Below, in pieces: positions 1-17,414 of a stretch of DNA of 32,643 nucleotides; within the stretch, counting starts at the first letter, position 1; the number at the start of each line of letters is the position of its first letter. Position numbers and translations under genes: made by a program. This stretch comes from an uncultured Desulfosoma sp. GTDB taxonomy: Bacteria; Desulfobacterota; Syntrophobacteria; Syntrophobacterales; DSM-9756. Under the pieces are notes generated by a model that was not told the DNA's origin, did not search any database, and was given only the letters and a program-made list of their open reading frames with translations. The stretch lies in contig CALGPN010000053.1 of the NCBI GenBank assembly GCA_937960435.1, forward strand, positions 1-32,643, given 5' to 3'.

Positions 1-966
1 CGTCTCCCGGGCGATGATATATGCCTGGGGAATGAGTTCGTGCTCCAGACACCATGCCGCCGCATCAAAACTCTTGGCTTCCGGGTCGGGGGTCTCGAAA
101 GGACGGAGCTTTTCCCGCAGAAGCTCGAAAAGTGGCTTCAAGGGCGCGATGTATTGTTGGTCTTCGACCTCGCTGATTTGGTCGCCGAAAGACTTGGTCT
201 CGGCGATTTTCGGCCCTCGCACCGCGGCCAGATCCAGGCACAGGGTCTCGATGCTTTGGGCCAGGTCGTTCAGCGCCGTGGCGTCGGGGTGGGTTTGTCG
301 CTTCTCTTTATCGGAAAGAATGGGCCGCAGGTCTTGAGTCACCAGCCTTTTGATTTCCTGCGGACGGCCGGCCTTTTGGAAAATGTCCACCGCTCGGGCC
401 CAGTCCAAAAGGACGTCGTAGGGGGTAAGATCAAAGACCGGGGCGATGCGTTTTTCTTCGGGCATCTTTTCCACATCCTTGATGGAGCCCAGCGTCTCGA
501 AGGCCCCGTACAGGATGCGCTCCACCCGGACGTTTTTGAGGACCTTGGCATAGTTGAGGATAACGGTTTGGAGAAGCGGCAGAGACCGGAAGGAATGGGT
601 GATGTCCAAAAAAACCCGGTCTTCGGATTGAAGGGCATCCACCAGGATCATGAAAATGTCCATGATTTCCTTTTCGTTTTGCCCTTCGGGGATCGCCACC
701 CTTTGTAGCGAAGCGGGAACGGTCAAAGCTTCGAGGCGTGTCTTCAAACCTCGGTCGAAGTTGCCGCCGTCCCGCCAATTGATTTCCCGGGCTTTTTCGG
801 TGCAGAAGATGAGCACACGATCCCTGGGGTTCCAATCTCTGCAGAAGTGGGCCACAAGGGCCTCCTGCACGAAAACGACGGGCTGAACGCTCCTTTGCCC
901 GTCGATCCTGTAATAGCAGGGAACGTATTTGTTTGTGCCCAAAGCGCTGATAAAAACCCTGGCCAT
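1..966 (-). CDS. CRISPR-associated CARF protein, TIGR02221/DxTHG (Csx1-like) family, partial
   Basis: The minus-strand frame is open from an ATG at 966 to the window edge, giving 322 residues with no stop, so the C-terminus is missing. The start follows a good ribosome site (AAGGAG, spacing about 8). The N-terminus FISALGTNKY matches the first strand and loop of CARF (Rossmann-like) domains. Residues 119-130 (FLDITHSFRSLP) are the family signature, normally written DxTHG-x-R; here Ser replaces the Gly. Residues 303-322 look like the start of the helical C-terminal part, which in relatives is a HEPN ribonuclease; its R-x4-6-H motif would lie beyond the edge. Known role: these proteins bind cyclic oligoadenylate made by type III CRISPR complexes and act as ancillary RNases. 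No cas core gene or array is visible, so the main locus is probably to the left. The gene diverges from the 1532-6033 operon. Confidence 0.88.
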   Translation of the reverse strand, partial: MARVFISALGTNKYVPCYYRIDGQRSVQPVVFVQEALVAHFCRDWNPRDRVLIFCTEKAREINWRDGGNFDRGLKTRLEALTVPASLQRVAIPEGQNEKEIMDIFMILVDALQSEDRVFLDITHSFRSLPLLQTVILNYAKVLKNVRVERILYGAFETLGSIKDVEKMPEEKRIAPVFDLTPYDVLLDWARAVDIFQKAGRPQEIKRLVTQDLRPILSDKEKRQTHPDATALNDLAQSIETLCLDLAAVRGPKIAETKSFGDQISEVEDQQYIAPLKPLFELLREKLRPFETPDPEAKSFDAAAWCLEHELIPQAYIIARET

Positions 967-1178
967 ACGCCGCTCCTTTCTGCCGTGGCTCCATCGTGGT
1001 GACACATTCTCCCCAGCCGGACACAGCTCGTGAACGCCAAAACCCAACCCAACCCACCCGATCTGTCCGTGAACTACGGCACCAACGGAGGGTTTTGCAA
1101 AAACTTTCGGCATATTTTGTAAGTTTGATCACCAACAATGGCGCCCCGAGGCCTCTCGCATCGTCGTAGGGCAATTTC

Positions 1179-1200
1179 GGGCGGGCACAAGGCCCGCCCC
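1179..1200. repeat. dispersed GC-rich palindromic repeat, copy 1
   Basis: This is a 22-base palindrome with arms GGGCGGGC and GCCCGCCC around a short ACAAG loop. An identical 22-base copy lies at 6632-6653, and a copy with one change at 32437-32458. It can form a hairpin but has no T-run, so it resembles a REP-like element rather than a terminator. Confidence 0.8.
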
Positions 1201-1421
1201 TTCGGATCGGTTCGGTTGGGTCCCCCCTGTATGTTGAAGCGTTTCCTTGCCCCGATCGAACTCCAATGGGGCCATCATTCAATGCTCAAAAGAGAAAAAC
1301 GGGAACGAACATTTTCGCAATCAGCTTCCCCGGATAACCGTCAGCGATCTTCAAGCCTTCGGCATCTGAGCGTCCGTGCAAGCCCTCAAGCTGTGGCATC
1401 AAACGTGCTCACACGCATTTT

Positions 1422-1452
1422 TTGACAAGGGATGGGATCGTCTCGGAATTAT
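1422..1452 (+). promoter_or_regulatory. possible sigma-70 promoter for the sigma-like operon
   Basis: A perfect TTGACA (1422-1427) is followed, after a long 19-base spacer, by AATTAT (1447-1452, 4 of 6 matches). A TATGAT at 1491-1496 is an alternative -10 box, preceded by TTGCCA at 1465-1470 with a 20-base gap. Spacing is poor in both cases, so the start point is uncertain. If the operon is autoregulated by its own sigma-like protein, the real promoter may not fit the sigma-70 pattern. Confidence 0.3.
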
Positions 1453-1531
1453 CACGGATTCAGGTTGCCAGCTTCATGAAAATCTGGCTTTATGATTGCC
1501 GCCTTGTTGATTGGTGCTGCGGCGTCTTCCA

Positions 1532-2620
1532 ATGAGCGGCGAATCCATGACGTGGAAAGAGTGGCTCCACACAGCCTCCTGCCTTACCGTTCTCCATCGA
1601 GCGGCGGCTAAGGTTTTCGCGAAAGCCCGCCAATATCATCTCTCTCCTTTTGGGGAATCCAACCCGATCCGTAAGGGGCTTCGCGCCGCATCGGAAGATG
1701 AGCGTTCTCCTCTCGAAGAGCTCGCCCATGATCTTTGGCTTTTTGTCTCCGGCCACGCCGAGCGCTGGGAAGAAGAGCATCCCTTCCATACCCTGTGGGC
1801 TCAGGGAACAGACCGAATCGCTCTCCACATTGCCTTCGCTTACTCTAAAACTCTCCTGGATCGCGCAAGAACCCAAGAAGGCGATCCCTTCAAAGCCTTT
1901 TATCGGCGCGTGCGACAACTCATCGCCAAAAACCCGCGGTTTCAATATCGCGCGGATCCGCACAGGACTTTTTACGCGTGCTCCGAGGCCGCGCCACCCA
2001 ATGCGCAGCTACGGGAAATTCCACCCCCACCGTCCTACGCCGACTGGCCGTCCCCGCCGGGGTCCGTCAAAGTTTCAGCTTCCTTAAATGCCTCGGAAAT
2101 TCATGATCTGGCACTGTTTTTCTGCCGAGAATATATCCATAGGGCCGGGACGGCCGTCTGGGTTCCCGTTCGTGAGCTGGTGCGATATCTCTCCCATTGG
2201 GGGGCCGTCCATGAGCGCCCGCGTTTTGTCCCCCTGGAGATGAGCCCATCGGATGAAACTGAAGAATCTTTTGAAATCCCCATCCCCGCACCTGCGCTTC
2301 AAGAAACGGCCCTTCAATGCGCGAGGGTGACCGAGCTGGCTCAGAGCTTGGCAGCCTCTTGGAGCCCCCAAGACCGCAAGGCTTTTGCGCTTTTCTACGG
2401 CGATGAAGAAACATTGGACCGCGTCGCCCGGGTTTTAGGCTACAGCGGGGCTTCCGGTGCCCGGTATAGGCTCCAAAGGCTCATCGAGGAATTCAAGGAT
2501 TTCTGTCTCCTATGGCCTGAGCTTTCCCCGCCCGATTTGGATGAGAATGTTTTTAAGGCATTTTTTACGGCCTTGATCGCCGTTTGCAAACAGGAAGACG
2601 AGGGCCGTAATGAAAGGTAA
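1532..2620 (+). CDS. sigma-factor-like protein with region-4-type helix-turn-helix
   Basis: This is a 362-residue protein that I do not recognise as a named family. The C-terminal part (about residues 275-322) has the pattern of a sigma region 4: SWSPQDRKAFALFYGDEE, then LDRVARVLGYSG as first helix and turn, then ARYRLQRLIEEF as recognition helix. The middle contains KAFYRRVRQLIAKNPRFQYR, followed by a Pro-rich linker. A clear region 2 (-10 binding) is not visible, so it is either a divergent sigma factor or an HTH regulator. Start choice is uncertain: TTG 1511, ATG 1532 and ATG 1547 are all in frame with weak ribosome sites. It is first in an operon with an anti-sigma-like zinc protein and a Lon-like protease, which supports a sigma/anti-sigma reading by inference. 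Confidence 0.75.
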   Translation: MSGESMTWKEWLHTASCLTVLHRAAAKVFAKARQYHLSPFGESNPIRKGLRAASEDERSPLEELAHDLWLFVSGHAERWEEEHPFHTLWAQGTDRIALHIAFAYSKTLLDRARTQEGDPFKAFYRRVRQLIAKNPRFQYRADPHRTFYACSEAAPPNAQLREIPPPPSYADWPSPPGSVKVSASLNASEIHDLALFFCREYIHRAGTAVWVPVRELVRYLSHWGAVHERPRFVPLEMSPSDETEESFEIPIPAPALQETALQCARVTELAQSLAASWSPQDRKAFALFYGDEETLDRVARVLGYSGASGARYRLQRLIEEFKDFCLLWPELSPPDLDENVFKAFFTALIAVCKQEDEGRNER

Positions 2621-2689
2621 AGGGAAGACGGGAATAGGTCGAGGACATGGGCCTTGGCCCTAGGCATTTTGGAGGAAAGGCGGTAGACC

Positions 2690-3895
2690 GTGACCCTGAG
2701 GCAGCTGCTCGACGGATCACAAAAGACCCGAAGCACCTTGAAACGGCGGCTGGCGCTGGAGGAAGCCTATCGGTTGAGAGGCTGCCCGCCGTCGTTTCTG
2801 CTCTTTCAGGATCCTCCCTCGGAAGCGCTTCGCCGACATTTGAAAACGTGCCCATGGTGTTGCGAAGATCGCGATTTATTGATGCCATTCGCCGCGGAAG
2901 CCCTGCATGCGGGACCGGGAGGCGATGAAAAGGGATCGAAACGCGAAAGCGCTCCCGCTGAGGTGGGCGATCTGCGGCGCATTCTCGAAACCTTCGGAGG
3001 ATGGGGCCAACGGGGCAGATATTTTAACCCGCCGCTGGTTCTTCTTGTGGAGAGGGTCAGAGGGCGTGAAGACGCCTTTCGAGCGGCCCAGGTTCACGAC
3101 TTCGAGACGCTCAAGGGACCCGGCGATATCGCGCTTTTCTCTAAAGTCTTCGCCGAATCCTGGAATATGCTCGCCGTGGGCGCCCATCACCTTGGGCCGT
3201 TGGTCCGCCGCATCGATGCCGACGCCCTGGCTCAGGTTCGTCGAAACGCCTCCCAGAGCCCCCCGCCGGTGCCTATGGTCGAACCGACGACGCTTGCAAA
3301 GGAATTGCACCCGCCGAAGGGTCAGAAAAACGACTATCGAGAAGCTTTTCGTCGCCTGGAAAAAGACACGGCCGCCTTTTTCGCAAACCGGCTGTTGCAG
3401 GATCTCGTGAACAAAGATCAACGAGGCCGCCTTCAATCTGCGTTGAGAGCACACTTTGCCGATGGGGGATCTTTGGAAGAGGCCTTCGGGTCTCGCCTCG
3501 TTTTTGGCGGAGATTCCGAACAAGACTCGTGCCTGCACCTCCTTCTCGCTTCGTGGATGCCCCGTGCCCTGCCCATGGCCGCAGCCGGCGTAAGACAAGG
3601 CGTATTCGTCAAGAGAATTCATCTGAGCCCACCGCCGCCGAGGGTGGATCCCGTCTGGGCGGAGCTCACGGTTTTTGAAGAAACCGACAAAGGCTTTCTT
3701 GTGGGTGGCAAAATTTCCGAGCCCGTACCCGAGGATGCGGAAATCCATGCGCTGTGGCGCATGCCATGGGGGCGGGCCGTGGCCTGGGAAGCCACCATCG
3801 ATCCGCGCACGGGTTTTTTCCGGCTCTTGTTCCCCGAAGTCACGAAAAGATCGGCCCTGTTGGGCAATCTGGAAATTCTTGTGGGCCGACCATGA
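2690..3895 (+). CDS. anti-sigma-like protein with zinc-binding (ZAS/zf-HC2-like) N-terminus
   Basis: This 401-residue protein starts at GTG 2690 behind a strong GGAGGAAAGG. Near the N-terminus Cys32 is followed by His50, Cys54 and Cys57 (RRHLKTCPWC), the H-x3-C-x2-C arrangement of zinc-binding anti-sigma domains (zf-HC2). The centre is helical. The last 100 residues (from about 300) look like a beta-sandwich: alternating strands with DPRTGFFRLLFPE near the end, as in Ig-like or carboxypeptidase-regulatory-like folds. No membrane segment is evident, so the protein looks cytoplasmic. It lies 69 bases after the sigma-like gene, and its stop overlaps the start of the protease gene (ATGA), implying translational coupling. 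The inferred role is sequestering the sigma-like protein, possibly as the protease substrate. Confidence 0.75.
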   Translation: MTLRQLLDGSQKTRSTLKRRLALEEAYRLRGCPPSFLLFQDPPSEALRRHLKTCPWCCEDRDLLMPFAAEALHAGPGGDEKGSKRESAPAEVGDLRRILETFGGWGQRGRYFNPPLVLLVERVRGREDAFRAAQVHDFETLKGPGDIALFSKVFAESWNMLAVGAHHLGPLVRRIDADALAQVRRNASQSPPPVPMVEPTTLAKELHPPKGQKNDYREAFRRLEKDTAAFFANRLLQDLVNKDQRGRLQSALRAHFADGGSLEEAFGSRLVFGGDSEQDSCLHLLLASWMPRALPMAAAGVRQGVFVKRIHLSPPPPRVDPVWAELTVFEETDKGFLVGGKISEPVPEDAEIHALWRMPWGRAVAWEATIDPRTGFFRLLFPEVTKRSALLGNLEILVGRP

Positions 3896-6033
3896 CCGAA
3901 CCGGCTCGGTGGTCCCTTGAAGAGCTCGTCGTGTGGCACTCATGGGGGCGTTTCCATGAAAGGTTCCCCCATGTGGCCGACCCTCGGGGCTTCGTGCCTC
4001 CCGAAGACCCCGAGACGGCGAAAGAGCAGTTGAGAATTCTCCAAGATGTTGTGGATACGGAGTCGTTCAGCTTGACGGCCGTTTCATGTCTCGCGGCCGT
4101 GCTCAGTCAAAACAACTCGGCCTTTTCGACTCTCCGGTCCGCTTTTCTTAAAACTCTTTCGGCAGTGGTCCCCGGCTTTCAGTCCCGGCAATGGGCAAGA
4201 ATCGCCGAGGCCTCTTGGACCCTCATCCCCATTTTGGTCGATACCCGGCCCAAGGCCTGTGCCGTGTGGTTTGCCGTAGGCTTGGACGAAAACGCCGGAT
4301 CTTTCCTCACACCCCGGTGGTGGGAGTCGGTCGCCGACAACGAAGCCCAAAGAGCCGCAGGGGCTGCGGCTAAGCTTGTTCACCTCCGATCCGGGTGCCG
4401 TCTTCTCGTCCTTCCCGTGCTTTTTCCTTCCGGCCGCCAGTGCCTCTTTGGGGCCTCGCTCGCTCTCCCCCTTTACCTTGCCGGGTGGGGTCTCCATGTG
4501 GCGAAGCGGTCTGAGCACATGGCCGCCACCGGGGCTTTGCAGGAGGACGGAGTCGTGGGGCCGGTTTCCGCCGTGCCGCACAAAGCGCGCGCCGCCGAGG
4601 CCGTGGGCCGGCGGGCTTTAATCTGCCCAAGTCACGGGTTCGATCCGGAAACGGCAAGGAAAACGCCGCTCACGCTTCTTCCGGTTCAAGATGTGGAAGC
4701 CGCGGAATATTTATGGGAAACGTTTCAAGATCAGAACGCATCCAAAGTCCTTTCGGATTTTGAGCGCCTTTCGAATCCCATCGAATTGGCCCACACAGTC
4801 CACCTTTTGGATCCCCGGGCCGGCGGCTGGCAGGGTTTTCCGGCCCGTTACCGCAACACGGTTATAAAGATCGCCCGGGAGCCCAGACTGGCCGAAGAGG
4901 CCCTGGATCGCTTGGCCAAAATGGTTCGCGACCCCTATGCCGACGCCGCCTGGGTCGAGCGACTTCTGGAACCCTGGGACTTCCGATGTTTTGAGGTTTT
5001 AGCGGAAGAAAACCCCATGGCGGCGTTTCAAGCCGCCCAGCTTCGTTGGGCGGCGGCCACCCGCCGCGGCGAAGTCAAAGAGGCCCATCGGTGGATGCAA
5101 CGCTGCGAGAGTGTGCAGGCTCGCGTGCTTCAGTATCCGGACGGCATTTACAAAGTCTGTGATTTCCTGAACCGGCGGATCGTGAGCGAACGGCATGCCC
5201 GTTATCGGTTCGATCCCGAACTTCCCCAAGAGGTGTGGGATACGGTCCGGCGCCTGGAGGAAGAGCGATCGGCACGAGCCCGTAACGGCCTCAAGCCCGC
5301 AGCGCCCGCGCTGGGAAAACTCTACGGCACCATCGCCCAAAACTATGGCTTTTGCGGCCCGAAGTTTGGGGATGCCGTGGGTCGATATGTTTCGGAGGCC
5401 CAAGACGCCTTCGGTTTGGGACAGCTGCCCCAATATCGGGCGGACTGGCGCCGTCAATTTCATTATCGGCTGTATGCCGAGCTGGACGCCGAAAATTGGG
5501 CTGCCGCCTCGGAAACCCTCAGAGCCTACGGGATCGCACCGGCGGCCGGTGCAGCTTTGGCGCCACGGGAAAGGCCTTTTGATAAGATGTCGCCCTATGA
5601 ACATGCGGCCCTGGCACGGTATCTGGCGGAAACGGGAAGTCCCCACGAGCCGAGTTATCTCGCATGGGCTTTGGAGCGCATGAGAAAGCCTCTGCCGGGC
5701 CACCCGTGGCCTCTTTGGCTGTGGAACATGGGCCGGATCTTCCAGAAGAAGGTGGACAAGGAACGCGCATGGCGGATGAGCATGGAACTTTCGCTCTCGT
5801 TGGGACCGACGGCCCGCCCCATGGCTCTGCTTCCGCTGGCATGGCTCCGGTGCGAGGGGCTGGAAACCGCCTCTCGAGTGGAACCCCACGTGATGCGGGT
5901 CATGGACGATCTCGCCCATGGGCCTTTGTGGCGCCCTCATTTTCGGGAGTTGCTGGACGGCGGCTCCGTCGACGATATTCTCGAAACAATCCTCCTTCGG
6001 GCTGCGGGCTTCTTCCCTTTCACCTACAGGTAA
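3892..6033 (+). CDS. Lon-like (S16) protease domain protein with long helical C-terminus
   Basis: The protein is 713 residues from the ATG that overlaps the upstream stop. Residues 167-250 align with the Lon proteolytic domain. FGAS-189 sits where Lon has its Ser nucleophile (GPSAG). ATGALQEDGVVGPVSAVPHK (212-231) matches Lon AMTGEITLRG...K without gaps, placing Lys231 as the general base. The Ser-Lys gap is 42 residues, against 43 in E. coli Lon (679/722). The usual flanking Gly residues are changed. There is no Walker A or other AAA+ motif. Residues 250-713 are mostly helical, Trp- and Arg-rich and unrecognised; this may be a sensor or a TPR-like scaffold. By inference it is an ATP-independent regulated protease acting on a partner such as the anti-sigma-like protein. 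Confidence 0.75.
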   Translation: MTEPARWSLEELVVWHSWGRFHERFPHVADPRGFVPPEDPETAKEQLRILQDVVDTESFSLTAVSCLAAVLSQNNSAFSTLRSAFLKTLSAVVPGFQSRQWARIAEASWTLIPILVDTRPKACAVWFAVGLDENAGSFLTPRWWESVADNEAQRAAGAAAKLVHLRSGCRLLVLPVLFPSGRQCLFGASLALPLYLAGWGLHVAKRSEHMAATGALQEDGVVGPVSAVPHKARAAEAVGRRALICPSHGFDPETARKTPLTLLPVQDVEAAEYLWETFQDQNASKVLSDFERLSNPIELAHTVHLLDPRAGGWQGFPARYRNTVIKIAREPRLAEEALDRLAKMVRDPYADAAWVERLLEPWDFRCFEVLAEENPMAAFQAAQLRWAAATRRGEVKEAHRWMQRCESVQARVLQYPDGIYKVCDFLNRRIVSERHARYRFDPELPQEVWDTVRRLEEERSARARNGLKPAAPALGKLYGTIAQNYGFCGPKFGDAVGRYVSEAQDAFGLGQLPQYRADWRRQFHYRLYAELDAENWAAASETLRAYGIAPAAGAALAPRERPFDKMSPYEHAALARYLAETGSPHEPSYLAWALERMRKPLPGHPWPLWLWNMGRIFQKKVDKERAWRMSMELSLSLGPTARPMALLPLAWLRCEGLETASRVEPHVMRVMDDLAHGPLWRPHFRELLDGGSVDDILETILLRAAGFFPFTYR

Positions 6034-6120
6034 ATCCGCGAACGGTTTGAGCCCGAAGATCGCCGGGGGCGTCTATGCGATGCAGCGGCTCGTCACCCTG
6101 GCGCCGTACCCATTATCGCG

Positions 6121-6324
6121 TCCCACGGTAGGGGCAGGCCTTGTGGCTGCCCGCAATTTGTAGGGGCAGGCCTTTTGCCCCGCGCAATTTGTAGGGGCAG
6201 GCCCTCTGCCTGCCCGGAATTTGTAGGGGCCATTTGTCGGAATGGGCGTTGTGCCCGCCCGCAATTTGTAGGGGCAGGCCTTGTGCCTGCCCGCAATTTG
6301 TAGGGGCAGGCCTTGTGCCTGCCC
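6121..6324. repeat. tandem array of 32-base hairpin units
   Basis: Six units start at 6121, 6153, 6184, 6216, 6261 and 6293, with lengths 32, 31, 32, 45, 32 and 32. Each consists of a spacer like GCAATTTGTAGG and a palindrome of the form GGGCAGGC-loop-GCCTGCCC (8-bp perfect stem in the best copies). The 45-base unit contains an extra CATTTGTCGG stretch that recurs at 6470-6480. Units abut with no variable spacer. Confidence 0.9.
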
Positions 6325-9664: not shown

Positions 9665-10908
9665 TCACCAAACTCTTTCGAAACGCCGCCGTCTTCACGC
9701 CGGAAGACGGTGGAAAACCCAGGGCCGGGCCGGACCAAGGGCGGATCCGCGCGGTGCCCAAAGGAGCCCTTCTGTGCCGAAACGGGCGAGTCGCCGCCCT
9801 GGGTCCTGAAAAAGACGTCCTGAAAGCTCTTCACGCCGACGATGTGGACCTGGAAGTGGACCTGGAAGGGCGGTGTGTCCTCCCCGGCTTTGTGGATCCG
9901 CACACTCACTTGTGTTTCGTGGAAACACGCGAACAGGAATTTTCCCTTCGACTGCAGGGCGTGGAATATCTGGAGATTTTGCGCCGAGGTGGAGGCATCC
10001 TCTCCACAGTGCGATCGGTTCGAAAAAGCGATGAGGAAACGCTTTTCCGGGCGACCCGGGAAAGAGTTTTGCGGGCCCTGCGCTTCGGCACGACCACCCT
10101 GGAAATCAAAAGCGGCTACGGACTGGAGACGCCGACCGAACTGAAAATGCTTCGCGTAATCCGCCGCATCGGCCGGGAAACACCCCTGGATGTGGTGGCG
10201 ACTTTCATGGGCGCCCATGCCGTACCGGAAGAATACCGAAACCGAACCGACGACTACGTGGACGCGATCGTTCGGGACATGATCCCGGAAGTGGCTCGTC
10301 AAGGGATCGCTCGGTTCTGCGATGTGTTCTGCGAACAAGGGGTGTTTTCCGTCGCCCAGAGCCGAAGGATCCTCCGGGCGGCTCTGGCGGCGGGCCTCGG
10401 GGCCAAGATCCATGCCGATGAAGTTCATGACCTGGGCGGGGCGGCTCTGGCGGCCGAAATCGGCGCCCTTTCCGCCGAACACCTCCTGGCGGCTTCGGAG
10501 GCTTCCCTCAAGGCCATGGCCCAGGCGGGAACCATCGGCGTCGTGCTGCCGGCAACGGCCTACAGCCTGCGAAAACCCTTCGCCAAGGCCCGCACCATGA
10601 TCGAGCTCGGCGTGCCCGTCGCTTTGGCCACGGACGGCAACCCGGGATCTTCCTACACCGAATCCATGCCTTTCGTTTTTGGGCTGGCCGTCCTCTCGAT
10701 GGGTCTTTCCGTGGAAGAAGCCCTGACCGCCGCAACGCTCAATGCGGCCTACGCCATCGCTACGGCCGATCGCGTCGGAAGCCTGGATGTGGGCAAGCAG
10801 GCGGATTTTCTCGTTCTGGAAGGCGAAACCCCGGCGGTTGTCCCTTATCATGCCGGCGCCAACCCCGTTGCGGCCGTCTACAAGAAAGGAGAACTGTGTT
10901 TCGGGTGA
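9661..10908 (+). CDS. hutI: imidazolonepropionase
   Basis: Hydrolyses imidazolone-5-propionate to N-formimino-L-glutamate, the step between HutU and FtcD. The 415-residue protein is an amidohydrolase-fold metalloenzyme. Metal ligands are seen in FVDPHTH (His81, His83), KIHADEVHDLGG and ATDGNPGSS (Asp). The segments LRRGGGILSTVRS and GAHAVPEEYR are typical of HutI. The family usually has a DxNPGS motif; here it reads DGNPGS. The start overlaps the ftcD stop. The 240-base gap after it, before the cyclodeaminase gene, contains no gene but a small hairpin at 11023-11040. Confidence 0.96.
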   Translation: MITKLFRNAAVFTPEDGGKPRAGPDQGRIRAVPKGALLCRNGRVAALGPEKDVLKALHADDVDLEVDLEGRCVLPGFVDPHTHLCFVETREQEFSLRLQGVEYLEILRRGGGILSTVRSVRKSDEETLFRATRERVLRALRFGTTTLEIKSGYGLETPTELKMLRVIRRIGRETPLDVVATFMGAHAVPEEYRNRTDDYVDAIVRDMIPEVARQGIARFCDVFCEQGVFSVAQSRRILRAALAAGLGAKIHADEVHDLGGAALAAEIGALSAEHLLAASEASLKAMAQAGTIGVVLPATAYSLRKPFAKARTMIELGVPVALATDGNPGSSYTESMPFVFGLAVLSMGLSVEEALTAATLNAAYAIATADRVGSLDVGKQADFLVLEGETPAVVPYHAGANPVAAVYKKGELCFG

Positions 10909-11838: not shown

Positions 11839-12504
11839 TTACGGGCTCAGCAATCGTTCATGATCGCTTCCCGCGCGAATCTCATCAATAATTCTGGGAA
11901 ATTCCGCATCGAAAGGATCGAGAAACGCAGGATCCAAAAGATCGAGACGTTCCAAAAGGTTTCTGGGGAATGTCTTTAACCGCACAATCAGGTCATCGAT
12001 GGAAAAGAAGGCCTTCTTCAAGGCCGCCTGAAGAATGTCGTTCCACGAAAAAGAATGATATTTCCATATGAGATAGATGTCGAAGACGTCCTTGGGGTCG
12101 TCCCTTCCGACAACGGCCGTAATTTTGTTGCATAGAATGTTTTCTATGTTATCGATGACATATCCGAGCGGTGTGACGATCACGTCCTTATATCTCGGGC
12201 TGTGTTCGTTGATGAAGTCCACTTGGAGTTGTTCGTTGATTCTCCATCGCGTGAAATCTTTCGATTCCACTTCGACTTTCAAAGAAAAAACATCGAGCAT
12301 TCGCCTTCTGATGGTACGCACCGCAAAAGCATATCGCGGGGACCCGTCTGCGAAAAAATCGAGATCGTCCGAATACCGCTTCGGAAAATAAAAGCGACTC
12401 AGACACGTGCCCCCTGTCAGGTAGAATAGGTTCTCGGTCTTGAAGACCACACGGAAAACCTCATCCTGCAGGGCATACATTTCTTTGTAATCTATGTGAT
12501 CCAT
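11839..12504 (-). CDS. nucleotidyltransferase toxin, AbiEii/AbiGii family
   Basis: This 221-residue protein has the DNA-polymerase-beta-like nucleotidyltransferase signature of AbiEii/MenT-type toxins: YLTGGTCLSRFYF (GG at 31-32), then RYSDDLDFF with the catalytic acid pair Asp47/Asp49, and later GRDDPKDVFDIYLIW. Family members transfer nucleotides to tRNA or other targets and are neutralised by a partner. The upstream gene (12492-12800) overlaps its start by 13 bases and is the likely antitoxin. The pair is AT-richer than its neighbours, suggesting acquisition. It is convergent with fchA. Confidence 0.88.
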   Translation of the reverse strand: MDHIDYKEMYALQDEVFRVVFKTENLFYLTGGTCLSRFYFPKRYSDDLDFFADGSPRYAFAVRTIRRRMLDVFSLKVEVESKDFTRWRINEQLQVDFINEHSPRYKDVIVTPLGYVIDNIENILCNKITAVVGRDDPKDVFDIYLIWKYHSFSWNDILQAALKKAFFSIDDLIVRLKTFPRNLLERLDLLDPAFLDPFDAEFPRIIDEIRAGSDHERLLSP

Positions 12505-12800
12505 AACAACTCATCAATCACCAAATCTTTGTCAAAGAAAAACACCTCCACCAAGTTTTTCCTCTTGGCGGCGTGCTCTCGATTAAATTGGGGAAGCTTG
12601 TAGTTTTCGACAAGTTCTTTTAAATCATCCAAATCAAATATGGATATGTCGTTAAGAAGGTGGGTGCTATTGAGCAAAATTTTCTCAAAGATGAATCTCT
12701 TCTCCTCCCTGTTTCCTGCGCGTGCCATACGGAGAATGTCTTGGGGCGTCATTGTGGTTTCCCAGAAACATTCTCTGCGGATGCGGTCCAAATCCGGCAT
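12492..12800 (-). CDS. putative antitoxin partner of AbiEii-family toxin
   Basis: This 102-residue protein reads MPDLDRIRRECFWETTMTPQ at the start and then ILRMARAGNREEKRFIFEKI. This matches the small helical proteins commonly encoded directly before AbiEii-type nucleotidyltransferases. ATG 12800 is chosen because GAGGGAAAGCG precedes it; an upstream in-frame ATG at 12875 lacks a ribosome site. The 3' end overlaps the toxin gene by 13 bases. No DNA-binding domain is evident. Bases 12601-12660 hold only 18 G/C of 60 by hand count, against 41 of 60 in a hutI line (10381-10440), consistent with horizontal transfer. Antitoxin function is inferred from context. Confidence 0.75.
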   Translation of the reverse strand: MPDLDRIRRECFWETTMTPQDILRMARAGNREEKRFIFEKILLNSTHLLNDISIFDLDDLKELVENYKLPQFNREHAAKRKNLVEVFFFDKDLVIDELLWIT

Positions 12801-12906
12801 CGCTTTCCCTCGAGGATCCAGTGGAATAATTGGGTTCCGTGTTTTCTTGGAAGGTCCAAGGCCTTCTTGTTCCATGCTTATCGGAATCCGCGGATCTTAG
12901 GAAGAT

Positions 12907-14666: not shown

Positions 14667-14710
14667 AGACAAGACAAGCCGGCGTTTCCCACGAAGATGG
14701 ACCCGCCGGC
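14667..14710 (-). terminator. candidate terminator downstream of the DUF1269 gene
   Basis: On the minus strand GCCGGCG (14710-14704) pairs with CGCCGGC (14684-14678) across a 19-base loop and is followed by TTGTCTTGTCT. The loop is long and the T-run broken, so efficiency is doubtful. The position, just after the gene ending at 14727 and before the ABC ATPase gene, fits. Confidence 0.45.
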
Positions 14711-14726
14711 CCCCGTCGAAACCTCG

Positions 14727-15647
14727 TCACTCCTCGGCTTCAGGGGAAGACAACGCGTCTCGGAGTTGCTCCTCGCCTCGGGCGCTCAAGGACGTCACCA
14801 GCACCGTGCCGCCGATTTTTTTCAACGCATCGATCATTTCCTTGATTTTTGCGCTCCGCACAATGACCACCAAAGCCCAGGTGTCCGGAAGGACCGCACA
14901 CGCGAGATGCCGAACAAATTCGTCGTCTATCCCCACATGGGACAGGGTGAACCGGGCGCTTCCGGCTGCGGCCCCGGTCATGGTGCCGAGCGCCGCGCCC
15001 AAGACGGGGTGGAAAAAGAGAGAACCGATCAAAAGCCCGGCGATGCTTCCGACGGCCGTTTCCGTGACGCCCGAATGCTGCACGGGTTTCAGGGAAAGCC
15101 GTCCCTGAGCGTCCCGATGGAGCACGACTATTCCTTCCAGTTCCAGCGCCCCTTTGCGGTGCCAGGCTACCAATTCCTCGCGCAGCCTTTGGATGACGGC
15201 TTCCGTCTTGTCCCCCACCACGAAAAGGTGGCTATGGTGAGTCCTTTGCCACAAAGCGCGGGCCAGCTTGTGGGCCAGCCATTCCCGAAAATGGTCGGCG
15301 CCCTTCCAGGATTTCCCCAAAGCATCCACGAAATGGACGCTGTCGTCCCGCATGTCCAAGGCGACGTAGACATCGACCTCTTCTTGAATCTTTTCGACGG
15401 TGCGTGTGCCTTCCATGCCGATGATCACCCATTCTTTGGGAAACTGCGGAAACATGGTCCGGAAGGATTGCGTCGTGCCCACGGCGAAGTCGGCGTTGCC
15501 GAGGCCGGGAATCCACCCCGGCTCGGACAGGGGATCCGCAGAGAGGTGTTCGTCGTAGTGGGCCAACAATCCCTCATAACAAGGAGAAATATCGACGCCC
15601 AAAGTCTGCCGGAACCTCTTGGTGAAATCACTCATGGTTCCTCTCAT
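14727..15647 (-). CDS. DUF1269 protein with possible SUKH-like N-terminal domain
   Basis: A 306-residue protein. The C-terminal half (about 165-295) fits DUF1269: GIVVLHRDAQGRLSLKP, a glycine-rich hydrophobic hairpin (GSIAGLLIGSLFFHPVLGAA and on), then ALVVIVRS and a short alpha/beta end. This half probably inserts in or lies on the membrane. The N-terminal half has LGNADFAVGTTQSF, FPKEWVIIGMEG, VYVALDMR and VHFVDALGKSW, which resembles SMI1/KNR4 (SUKH) folds; this is a pattern call only. ATG 15647 is supported by GGAGGAGGG at spacing 9; ATG 15635 is the alternative. A TTGACT at 15727-15732 on the minus strand may be a -35 box, without a clear -10. Function unknown. Confidence 0.8.
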   Translation of the reverse strand: MRGTMSDFTKRFRQTLGVDISPCYEGLLAHYDEHLSADPLSEPGWIPGLGNADFAVGTTQSFRTMFPQFPKEWVIIGMEGTRTVEKIQEEVDVYVALDMRDDSVHFVDALGKSWKGADHFREWLAHKLARALWQRTHHSHLFVVGDKTEAVIQRLREELVAWHRKGALELEGIVVLHRDAQGRLSLKPVQHSGVTETAVGSIAGLLIGSLFFHPVLGAALGTMTGAAAGSARFTLSHVGIDDEFVRHLACAVLPDTWALVVIVRSAKIKEMIDALKKIGGTVLVTSLSARGEEQLRDALSSPEAEE

Positions 15648-16082
15648 TTCCGTGTCCCTCCTCCCCCCGCCTTAAAATAGTCCGAAAAGTGATGCGCCCG
15701 ATGCTTAGTGTCCATATCCTTTTTGAAGTCAATCTAAAAGATAAGGACGATCCTGGCGGCTGGAATCACAGCCTATTCGGTCAAACGGTGCCTCGGGTGT
15801 TTGTGAGCGCTCACTCTTTGCCGGATCGCCGGTTCACCCTCAAGGCCTTCAGGGCATATGGCCCCGGCCGTATCACAACGGAAAAACACTTCCCTTTCGA
15901 AGACTCGGCGCATCTGAATTGGGAGTCCGCGGTTCATCGGTCGGGAACAAGGCTGGAAACGAGACAGACGCCCCCTGAGCTCTTTTCGGCTCATTTGGGA
16001 GCCGTTTTCTCCTGCCGGGTTTCCGGGTGTGCCTTTTCCCCAAGAGTGGCGGGAGGCTCAGACATGGGGCTCATGGACTTTC
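15648..16082. other. intergenic region between DUF1269 gene and tRNA-Arg
   Basis: I see no credible gene in these 435 bases. A plus-strand open frame from 15689 runs through the antisense of the tRNA and has no ribosome site or family motif. The region must hold the promoter of the 14727-15647 gene. Confidence 0.6.
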
Positions 16083-16158
16083 TGGCGGGCGACCCGGGGA
16101 TCGAACCCGGGACCTTTGGTTCCGGAGACCAACGCTCTCTCCACTGAGCTAGTCGCCC
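16083..16158 (-). tRNA. tRNA-Arg(CCG)
   Basis: A 76-base cloverleaf on the minus strand with encoded CCA. Acceptor GGGCGAC/GTCGCCC pairs perfectly, followed by discriminator G and CCA. The D-stem is GCTC/GAGC. The anticodon stem TTGGT/ACCAA carries loop CTCCGGA, so the anticodon is CCG, reading CGG codons. The T arm is CCGGG-TTCGATC-CCCGG. All stems are intact, with no sign of an intron or truncation. Confidence 0.96.
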
Positions 16159-16188
16159 GTGCCGGAATGGTGTTTCGGTGCCGCGCCG

Positions 16189-16217
16189 CTTGTATCACAT
16201 GGCTGGGGTCCTGTCAA
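16189..16217 (-). promoter_or_regulatory. sigma-70 promoter of tRNA-Arg
   Basis: On the minus strand TTGACA (16217-16212) is separated by exactly 17 bases from TACAAG (16194-16189, 4 of 6 matches to TATAAT). Transcription would start about 20-25 bases before the mature tRNA 5' end at 16158. Confidence 0.8.
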
Positions 16218-16440
16218 CGTCGGGTGGCGCCGGCGCGGCCCTTCCCATGGCATCCGAGACGCCGACCCAGTGTCCCGCGCGTCGTTTCGGCGTCACCCGC
16301 CATAAGGCCCGTTCTTTCCCCCGGTGGAAGAAGCGCCAATCGAGACGAAGGCTCATCGAAATGTCGAGCGTCGAAAGCCGCGACTGCGGGGCGGGTGTCC
16401 CCCTGAGGCTTCGGGCCCCCTCAGGGCCGGGCTTCACAGA

Positions 16441-16875
16441 TCAATCCTCGTCCTTGTCCTCCGCCGCGGACATCCAACTTTCCAGCTCTTCGAGCACGTA
16501 ATGGACCAGCGCGGCCGCCTCCCAAAGGCAGCCGAGAACGGAGGCGAAGGCGCTGTCCGTCACGCGGCTCTGCCCATGGGCGACGGTTTCCACCATGCAG
16601 CGGGCGTCGTTCACATAGCCCATGGCGGGTTGGAGCCTCTCTTCGAAGTCCACGATCTTTTCGGTGTAGAGCCGGCACTTATTGATTTCATGCCAGGCCT
16701 GGGCCAAATCGTCCATGAGCTGCACCGTCGAGAGGGCGCGCAGACATATCTCGTTTTGGGTGCGCTCGATGAGCCTTAAGGCTTCGTAGAGGTGTTCGAC
16801 GGCCTTTGCGAGCTCCGGGGCGCCAAGGGAAACAGGTTCCATCGGCAGCGGTGTGTACAGAAAAAACTCGTCCAT
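16441..16875 (-). CDS. hypothetical helical protein
   Basis: A 144-residue acidic protein that I do not recognise. It is almost entirely helical by pattern (LAKAVEHLYEALRLIERTQN and similar heptad-like stretches) with a charged tail SAAEDKDED. No signal peptide, membrane segment or catalytic motif is visible. ATG 16875 is preceded by GGGGGAGGGGG, a plausible ribosome site; an in-frame TTG at 16881 is less likely. It stands alone, upstream of the tRNA gene on the same strand and probably independently transcribed. Confidence 0.7.
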   Translation of the reverse strand: MDEFFLYTPLPMEPVSLGAPELAKAVEHLYEALRLIERTQNEICLRALSTVQLMDDLAQAWHEINKCRLYTEKIVDFEERLQPAMGYVNDARCMVETVAHGQSRVTDSAFASVLGCLWEAAALVHYVLEELESWMSAAEDKDED

Positions 16876-17414
16876 GGGCAACCCCCTCCCCCTCGGCCGG
16901 CCAAAACGCAGCCCGAAAGCCCGTTGCGACCGGAAAGCGAACCCGCCGCCGTTTTTTTCCCCTTAAAGCCCCCATTCTCCTTTGCGGCGGCTGAGACGAA
17001 ATGTCCTTTGGACAAAGCGGGAAGGTCAAAGCTTCGCGGCACCCTATGACCCACCCCCAAAAGAGACGGACTGCCGACGGCCATCTATGGACTCGTCCCT
17101 TTCGCTGCCTTCGACGGAGACGTTCTCATCTTCTCGCCAAGCTTTTCAAAAAACTCAAATGGAAAATGGAGAGGTCGCGTGAGCCTCCCAAACCTTCGGT
17201 TTCGCCGACCCCGACCCTGTGCCGCCGCCTCGAAAAATCGCGCCAGGGACATGGCCCCCTTCGCCCCTTCGACGCGCTCTTTTCCTGAGGTTCGGGGATG
17301 GGTTCTTTTTCTCAAGTTTTGAGCGGGTCGTGACGATTAAGACAATGATGCCTTCAACGGAGCAGAACCGGCATTCACGATTGGATCGCCAGACAGAGGT
17401 ACGGTAACCGTTTT
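16876..17414. other. intergenic region without recognisable gene
   Basis: About 540 bases separate two hypothetical genes. Several short frames on both strands (for example 17001-17288 plus and 17085-17315 minus) are Arg/Pro-rich, lack ribosome sites and contradict each other, so I call none. Confidence 0.55.

Follow-up and report, generated by a model that had tools for sequence, protein, structure and literature searches.

In the CalpL/CalpT/CalpS system (CRISPR-Lon / CRISPR-T), the CalpL protease cuts the anti-sigma factor CalpT (accessible part of PMC11417357), and a 23 kDa piece of CRISPR-T is said to resemble MazF (accessible part of PMC9704534). In the type III-E CASP system, or Craspase (Cas7-11, Csx29, Csx30, CASP-sigma), a protease containing tetratricopeptide repeats (TPR) and complexed with Cas7-11 cuts Csx30, by which a sigma factor of extracytoplasmic function (ECF) type is proposed to be freed (accessible part of PMC10028731). 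Here we describe a three-gene cassette found in a stretch of 32,643 nucleotides (the window), which is the entire contig CALGPN010000053.1 (C53) of the 3.0 Mb draft genome of an uncultured Desulfosoma species (class Syntrophobacteria, order Syntrophobacterales, phylum Desulfobacterota). The cassette encodes a sigma-70 region-4 protein, a zinc protein with a MazF fold and a Lon-type protease. Judging from sequence, structure models and analogy, it is probably a proteolytic transcription switch of type III that acts in the manner of CalpL/T/S through a different activation module.

When compared with CalpL/CalpT/CalpS, the cassette shares the Lon Ser/Lys domain, a candidate substrate of MazF-like fold (a likeness of fold only, read from a model), a sigma-related partner and a type III locus with a cyclase-motif Cas10. 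On the other hand, CalpL has SAVED fused to Lon, and cleavage in the Calp system is triggered by cA4. No SAVED was detected in the window protease, which carries in its place a helical module some 430 residues long. The zinc protein differs from CalpT by a zinc finger preceding and a beta region following the MazF fold (features read in the window protein alone), and the sigma-like protein differs from CalpS by about 250 N-terminal residues in which region 2 was not recognised. Since the SAVED feature fails, we do not class the cassette with CalpL and regard it as another, new form of such a switch. Type III-E CASP, described from Desulfonema, a related member of the phylum, is similar in that it, too, has a type III-linked protease with helical repeats, whose proposed role is to release a sigma factor from an inhibitor. 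It differs by its CHAT protease and single-chain Cas7-11, whereas the window protease has a Lon fold and its own genome holds a multi-subunit type III system with a csm1-type Cas10; a CHAT protease bound to Cas7-11 is not what the cassette encodes. By this comparison, type III immunity seems to have evolved at least three forms of transcription control triggered by a protease, namely SAVED-Lon, CHAT with Cas7-11 and this cassette. A Lon protease with this helical module was not described in the accessible parts of the literature searched, a search that left bioRxiv and many subscription papers outside; Lon effectors come up in PMC11229360 and PMC12669027, with no such variant in the parts accessible.

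All three genes lie on the forward strand. The gene of the region-4 protein, with its helix-turn-helix (HTH), is the CalpS-like candidate and occupies 1547..2620. Its open reading frame (ORF) is open from 1511 (TTG) or 1532 (ATG), and the M-x-W start common to the relatives indicates that the gene probably begins at 1547 rather than 1532. It is followed by the gene of the CalpT-like protein, a candidate anti-sigma factor and protease substrate (2690..3895), and by that of the Lon-type Ser/Lys protease with its helical C-terminal module (3892..6033), whose start codon overlaps the previous stop. This 4-bp overlap, ATGA at 3892-3895, is found in 9 of 14 loci, the window counted. The preliminary description of this DNA had given the order HTH, zinc, Lon-like with the last two genes overlapping at ATGA, and the window ORFs agree with it in all of this; it had also begun the first gene at 1532, and here the gene stands, with a start that is probably at 1547 instead.

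The three genes form a real conserved cassette, beyond chance, with their order kept in most loci and the protease spread over many genera. Among 55 genomes of the class, 14 carry the full-length protease, the 13 others being 28-42% identical to that of the window, and one further genome (G023) carries a remnant. The full-length region-4 protein (E <1e-100) is present in exactly the 15 genomes with protease or remnant and in 0 of the 40 others. Fifteen regions were compared (14 fetched and the window), and 13 of the 15 class loci hold all three genes in the order region-4, zinc, protease. One locus (L029, in G028) is cut by a contig end and its region-4 gene lies on another contig, and an additional protease fragment exists elsewhere in G027. 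Protease or remnant spans 17 genera among the sampled genomes. Scanning 84,980 species genomes with a single conserved peptide pattern yielded 18 loci, all labelled Deltaproteobacteria/Desulfobacterota, 6 of them on the same contigs as class loci. At 17 of these 18 loci the protease has the zinc protein for a neighbour (E 4e-4 or better); the region-4 protein was detected at 12, many of the contigs being short. Phage-borne copies were also sought; 21 pattern stretches in viral contigs contained 0 relatives. The preliminary description had proposed a search for the three genes together in other genomes, and the homologues turn out not to be scattered, region-4 protein and protease or remnant sharing one set of 15 genomes among the 55 of the class.

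In the remnant locus (L036, in G023), at about 9720-10083, only some 30-35 codons from the start of the protease gene and roughly 89 from its end are left; the dyad domain is gone, and the region-4 and zinc genes are kept.

The same description had proposed to score the link of the cassette to type III cas genes, and such a link was found. Cas10 was counted in the class at TIGR02578 over cut-off or PF22335 with E <1e-20; because PF22335 also rings in an E. coli control, matches to it alone were counted only when strong, and G016 (E 3e-16, 562 aa) was excluded. In 8 of the 10 class genomes having both, Cas10 and cassette are on one contig, 6.5-30.6 kb apart, which has a chance of 0.3-1.8% each; in the window's own genome and in G022 they are on separate contigs. 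This positional evidence is stronger than the presence/absence statistics, whose p values are all uncorrected for kinship. Cas10 is present in 21 of the 55 class genomes, 10/14 with full protease vs 11/41 others (Fisher p 0.0043); with the remnant genome included, the counts become 11/15 vs 10/40 (p 0.0015), and within the order they are 10/14 vs 9/25 (p 0.036). Outside the class, Cas10 (E 7.6e-15 or better) was found in all 8 sampled full-protease genomes, on the same contig in 4 of them, and it was also found in 7 of ten further genomes reached through the loci, one of these being, to judge from its coordinates, identical with one of the 8.

The neighbourhood points the same way. Divergent from the first gene, a Csx1-type CARF gene of the TM1812 family, a type III marker, occupies 1..966 on the reverse strand and is truncated by the contig start (PADLOC E 1e-85, TM1812 E 8e-27). 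Of 16 regions, 7 contain Csx1-type genes and 4 contain CRISPR arrays; csm3, csm4 and csm5 lie near the cassette in L032, and relatives of some or all of them in L028, L030 and L035. In the own genome, a csm1-type Cas10 with HD and GGDD is located on contig C24 in a multi-gene operon, whose flanking ORFs we take to be look-alikes of cas6 and csm2-csm5. GGDD is kept in 18 of 18 Cas10 ORFs of at least 700 aa that were read in 17 genomes, a set in which two ORFs are cut by a stretch or contig end, two (own genome and G022) are off the cassette contig, and other Cas10s of these genomes are outside the count. Since these ORFs keep GGDD, the cells probably produce a second messenger. In L026, the cassette also has a CARF-adenosine deaminase gene nearby (14704-16929, PADLOC E 4e-205).

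The third gene product had been called a Lon-like protease, and profile, model and active site all bear this out. For the window protease itself no curated family model passes, the best being spore LonB under its cut-off (E 0.029), and there is no match to PADLOC 'CRISPR-Lon' at E 0.01; that model matches 4 of 26 scanned protease sequences, with a best E of 2e-5. A profile of 14 protease sequences searched against PDB picks up Lon structures (E 6e-12) and also CalpL (E 0.0036). Structure models were made for the protease and the zinc protein, and the VIA structure lists cover mainly residues 26-279 of the former and 85-194 of the latter. In the AlphaFold2 model of the protease (mean predicted local distance difference test score, pLDDT, of 88.8), residues 109-279, encoded at 4216..4728, align with the Lon proteolytic domain 8dvh with Z 20.0 and a root-mean-square deviation of 2.4 over 166 residues, and Foldseek with the same model also returns CalpL (E 4e-5). 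The dyad Ser189/Lys231 is invariant in 33 of 33 distinct family members, the window counted, at a spacing of 42-46 residues, the canonical Lon Ser-Lys spacing being 43. A Cys nucleophile (in the window's GRQC) was considered and rejected because Ser189 holds the catalytic place in all 33.

Behind the Lon domain, protease residues 280-713 are modelled as helical, and the TPR-like C-terminal module is encoded at 4759..6030. No strand of at least 3 residues is modelled after residue 265, and neither SAVED nor CARF was seen in this C-terminal part by PADLOC or in the whole-protein model; weak PADLOC SAVED-Lon and CARF-Lon matches in the window protein are confined to residues 184-246, in the Lon part. 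The earlier impression that no SAVED domain is recognisable is thus supported. CARF-Lon proteins resemble the window protease in using a Lon domain as a type III effector, and 3 of 26 members show weak PADLOC matches to each of two CARF-Lon models; the difference lies in their CARF, none being seen here. Apart from the dyad, conservation is strongest at Q483, N484, F487, R521 and Y525, each in 33 of 33 members. The PDB sequence profile of the module gave nothing, or chance-like rows only, and TPR matches are weak in three relatives and absent from the window protease.

The module is not confined to the protease. Its profile (A4) finds 18 of 395 phylum genomes, and two matches belong to another protein, in which the module follows a DUF3800-like N-terminus (a YMDESG start; Pfam DUF3800 only at E 0.2). 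Aligned with A4, this pair reaches 97.1% in hhalign; only A4 was used here, since A5 contains one of the pair and would make the comparison circular. The DUF3800-like protein is full-length in 3 of the 395 genomes, each with Cas10, and in pieces in a fourth. One such protein adjoins a RAMP-like gene (slightly under the Pfam cut-off), one shares a contig with Cas10 at a distance of about 5 kb, and that of L047 is about 3 kb from a Lon-type protein. TPR-DUF3800 proteins have been reported near Cas12a2 (accessible part of PMC10910872). They are likened here by description only, a DUF3800-like part with a helical module, here in type III genomes, and they differ in that the module here is mainly on a Lon protease. 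The proteins in question are located at L104:169-2376, L047:4320-6500 and in L127.

We infer that the helical module is the activation part of the protease, and since it is also present on DUF3800-like proteins in type III genomes, it may be a sensor or docking part. Our tentative proposal, which we would not yet call probable, is that these approximately 430 residues might form an unrecognised type III sensor/docking domain, neither CARF nor SAVED, swapped between Lon protease and DUF3800-like effectors, with the invariant polar set Q483, N484, R521 and Y525 as a candidate ligand or partner site. The module is a concrete candidate receptor for type III signals, distinct from CARF and SAVED, in organisms with a cyclase-motif Cas10. 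If it acted by docking, it would bind straight to the type III complex in the manner of TPR-CHAT in type III-E, without need of a nucleotide messenger. The helical C-terminus with its weak TPR matches, the Csx30-cutting protease of type III-E and the presence of the module on DUF3800-like proteins are consistent with such docking. But the GGDD kept in the Cas10s, and the Csx1-type and CARF-adenosine deaminase genes near the cassette, fit a nucleotide signal equally well or better, and we consider direct docking rather unlikely.

The zinc signature reported for the second gene is present as C32-x17-H50-x3-C54-x2-C57 (2783..2860). Among the 20 alignment rows, 18 cover the motif; C32, H50 and C54 are kept in 18 of 18 and C57 in 17. 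The motif lies within an N-terminal helical domain (helices 11-31, 45-53 and 55-72 in a model of mean pLDDT 84.2). A C-xn-H-x3-C-x2-C motif in such a domain defines the ZAS-type anti-sigma family. Against zf-HC2 proteins, hhalign gives 39-41%, a figure without shuffle control. PADLOC matches 0 of 20 members, and the PDB sequence profile gave nothing, or chance-like rows only, with no Csx30 entry among the results.

Residues 85-194 of the zinc protein (2942..3271) have a MazF fold in the model, with a VIA Z of 10.7 over about 100 residues; the best 50 Foldseek rows are nearly all MazF-family, at probability 0.99-1.00. In sequence, an hhalign comparison of the wide alignment A6 with eight MazF proteins reaches 25.6% (E 7e-4), compared with at most 0.2% in 20 column shuffles of A6. 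A second beta region, residues 304-399, has no assigned fold. The 'extra beta-domain' that the preliminary description gave to the anti-sigma factor corresponds to these two separate parts. The MazF part is no extra vs CalpT, because a MazF fold is described for CRISPR-T in the accessible part of PMC9704534. Since the fold is MazF, the protease might instead free this part as an RNA-cutting toxin, the region-4 protein being only an operon regulator, and toxin release was the first reading of CRISPR-T in the early literature (same source, likewise in part). In our rows, the MazF arginine position is Asn in 13 of 18 and Arg in 1 of 18, and the threonine position is Tyr or His in 19 of 20, as far as a weak alignment can place them. 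These are presumably the catalytic residues of MazF, and their replacement in most rows speaks against nuclease activity, so that this part is more likely to bind than to act as an RNase, and toxin release appears very unlikely.

For the first gene product, the HTH is a sigma region 4 at the C-terminus, as the preliminary description had it. Sigma70_r4 matches 8 of 19 family members (best E 3e-5) and Sigma70_r4_2 matches 4 of 19, the window protein itself falling under every family cut-off in the curated model scan. The region-4 profile was compared with 15 sigma factors of the genus, five kinds from three genomes, and hhalign gives 95.6% over region 4, with at most 0.24% in 20 column shuffles; against three ECF sigmas alone, it gives 75.8%. 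Its 14 weak secondary matches in the class fall at model positions 211-321, which is the region-4 part, and 3 of them overlap sigma factors detected by TIGR02937. The N-terminal approximately 250 residues show no convincing sigma match by profile or hhalign, and the PDB sequence profile gave nothing there, or chance-like rows only. Region 2 is found by profile only as a weak match in 1 of 19 members (E 0.057). Because region 2 is not convincingly found, the identity as a sigma factor is half shown, and the sigma-like label of the preliminary description holds for region 4 alone. With region 4 as the only part clearly detectable, the protein could be a DNA-binding regulator with the region-4 HTH rather than a sigma factor, and the cassette a protease-controlled repressor or activator. 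The weak region-2 match, the ZAS-like zinc finger of the partner and the ECF sigmas of the Calp and type III-E parallels argue against this, and we regard it as unlikely.

A Calp-like switch could work as follows. At rest, the zinc/MazF-fold protein would keep the region-4 protein inactive. When foreign RNA is detected by the type III complex, a signal would arise, either a nucleotide from the Cas10 with intact cyclase motif or direct docking, and would reach the protease via the helical C-terminal module, in place of the SAVED of CalpL. Ser189/Lys231 would then cut the zinc protein, and the released region-4 protein would redirect transcription.

This Calp-like reading, already put forward in the preliminary description, stands up well on the type III linkage, the Lon dyad, the region-4 protein and the MazF-fold zinc protein; it is limited by the half-shown sigma partner, and in detail it erred in counting the MazF fold as an extra. 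Several further results weigh against it, as does the lack of a convincing region 2. Foldseek gives zero MazF matches at E 0.001 or better (best 6e-3), and the hhalign value against MazF, weak with A6, is only 6.4% with the narrow alignment A2. Among the 35 good-quality genomes (at least 90% complete, at most 5% contaminated), Cas10 is present in 8/11 vs 9/24 (p 0.057). No Cas10 was found in 4 of the 14 class cassette genomes (G028, G031, G034 and G050), all drafts with locus contigs of 5.8-11.6 kb, nor in 3 of the ten further genomes reached through the loci.

Directly upstream of the region-4 gene, a fourth gene, whose product of about 150 aa carries the conserved motifs C-P-C and R-x-G-C, is present in all 13 other class loci whose sequence extends that far (L023-L028 and L030-L036), and likewise in L050-L053 and L116; the window lacks it (967-1531). 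No family or structure match was found for it (PADLOC with one member, Pfam with four, NCBIfam with seven, PDB profile), and a MazF-like identity was rejected at an hhalign value of 0.2%. In the same upstream part, 36 dyads recur in at least 3 of 16 loci, compared with 0-1 in 10 single-base shuffles. A shared promoter motif was rejected, and we make no such claim, because the recurrent dyads, judged by eye, are largely inside the fourth-gene coding sequence or in close relatives. A sigma-70-like promoter was not found in window 900-6200.

Elsewhere in the window, GC-rich short repeat units of the TTTGTAGGGGC and GTAGGTTGGGGTGAGC types lie between the cassette and the next operon (6157-6307, 6421 and 6552), and similar units are found at the opposite contig end (32454 and 32501). 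An overlapping gene pair at 11839-12875 encodes a nucleotidyltransferase-like protein (by eye) and a small partner, which we take to be AbiE-like; relatives of this pair adjoin the cassette in L023 (16283-17265).

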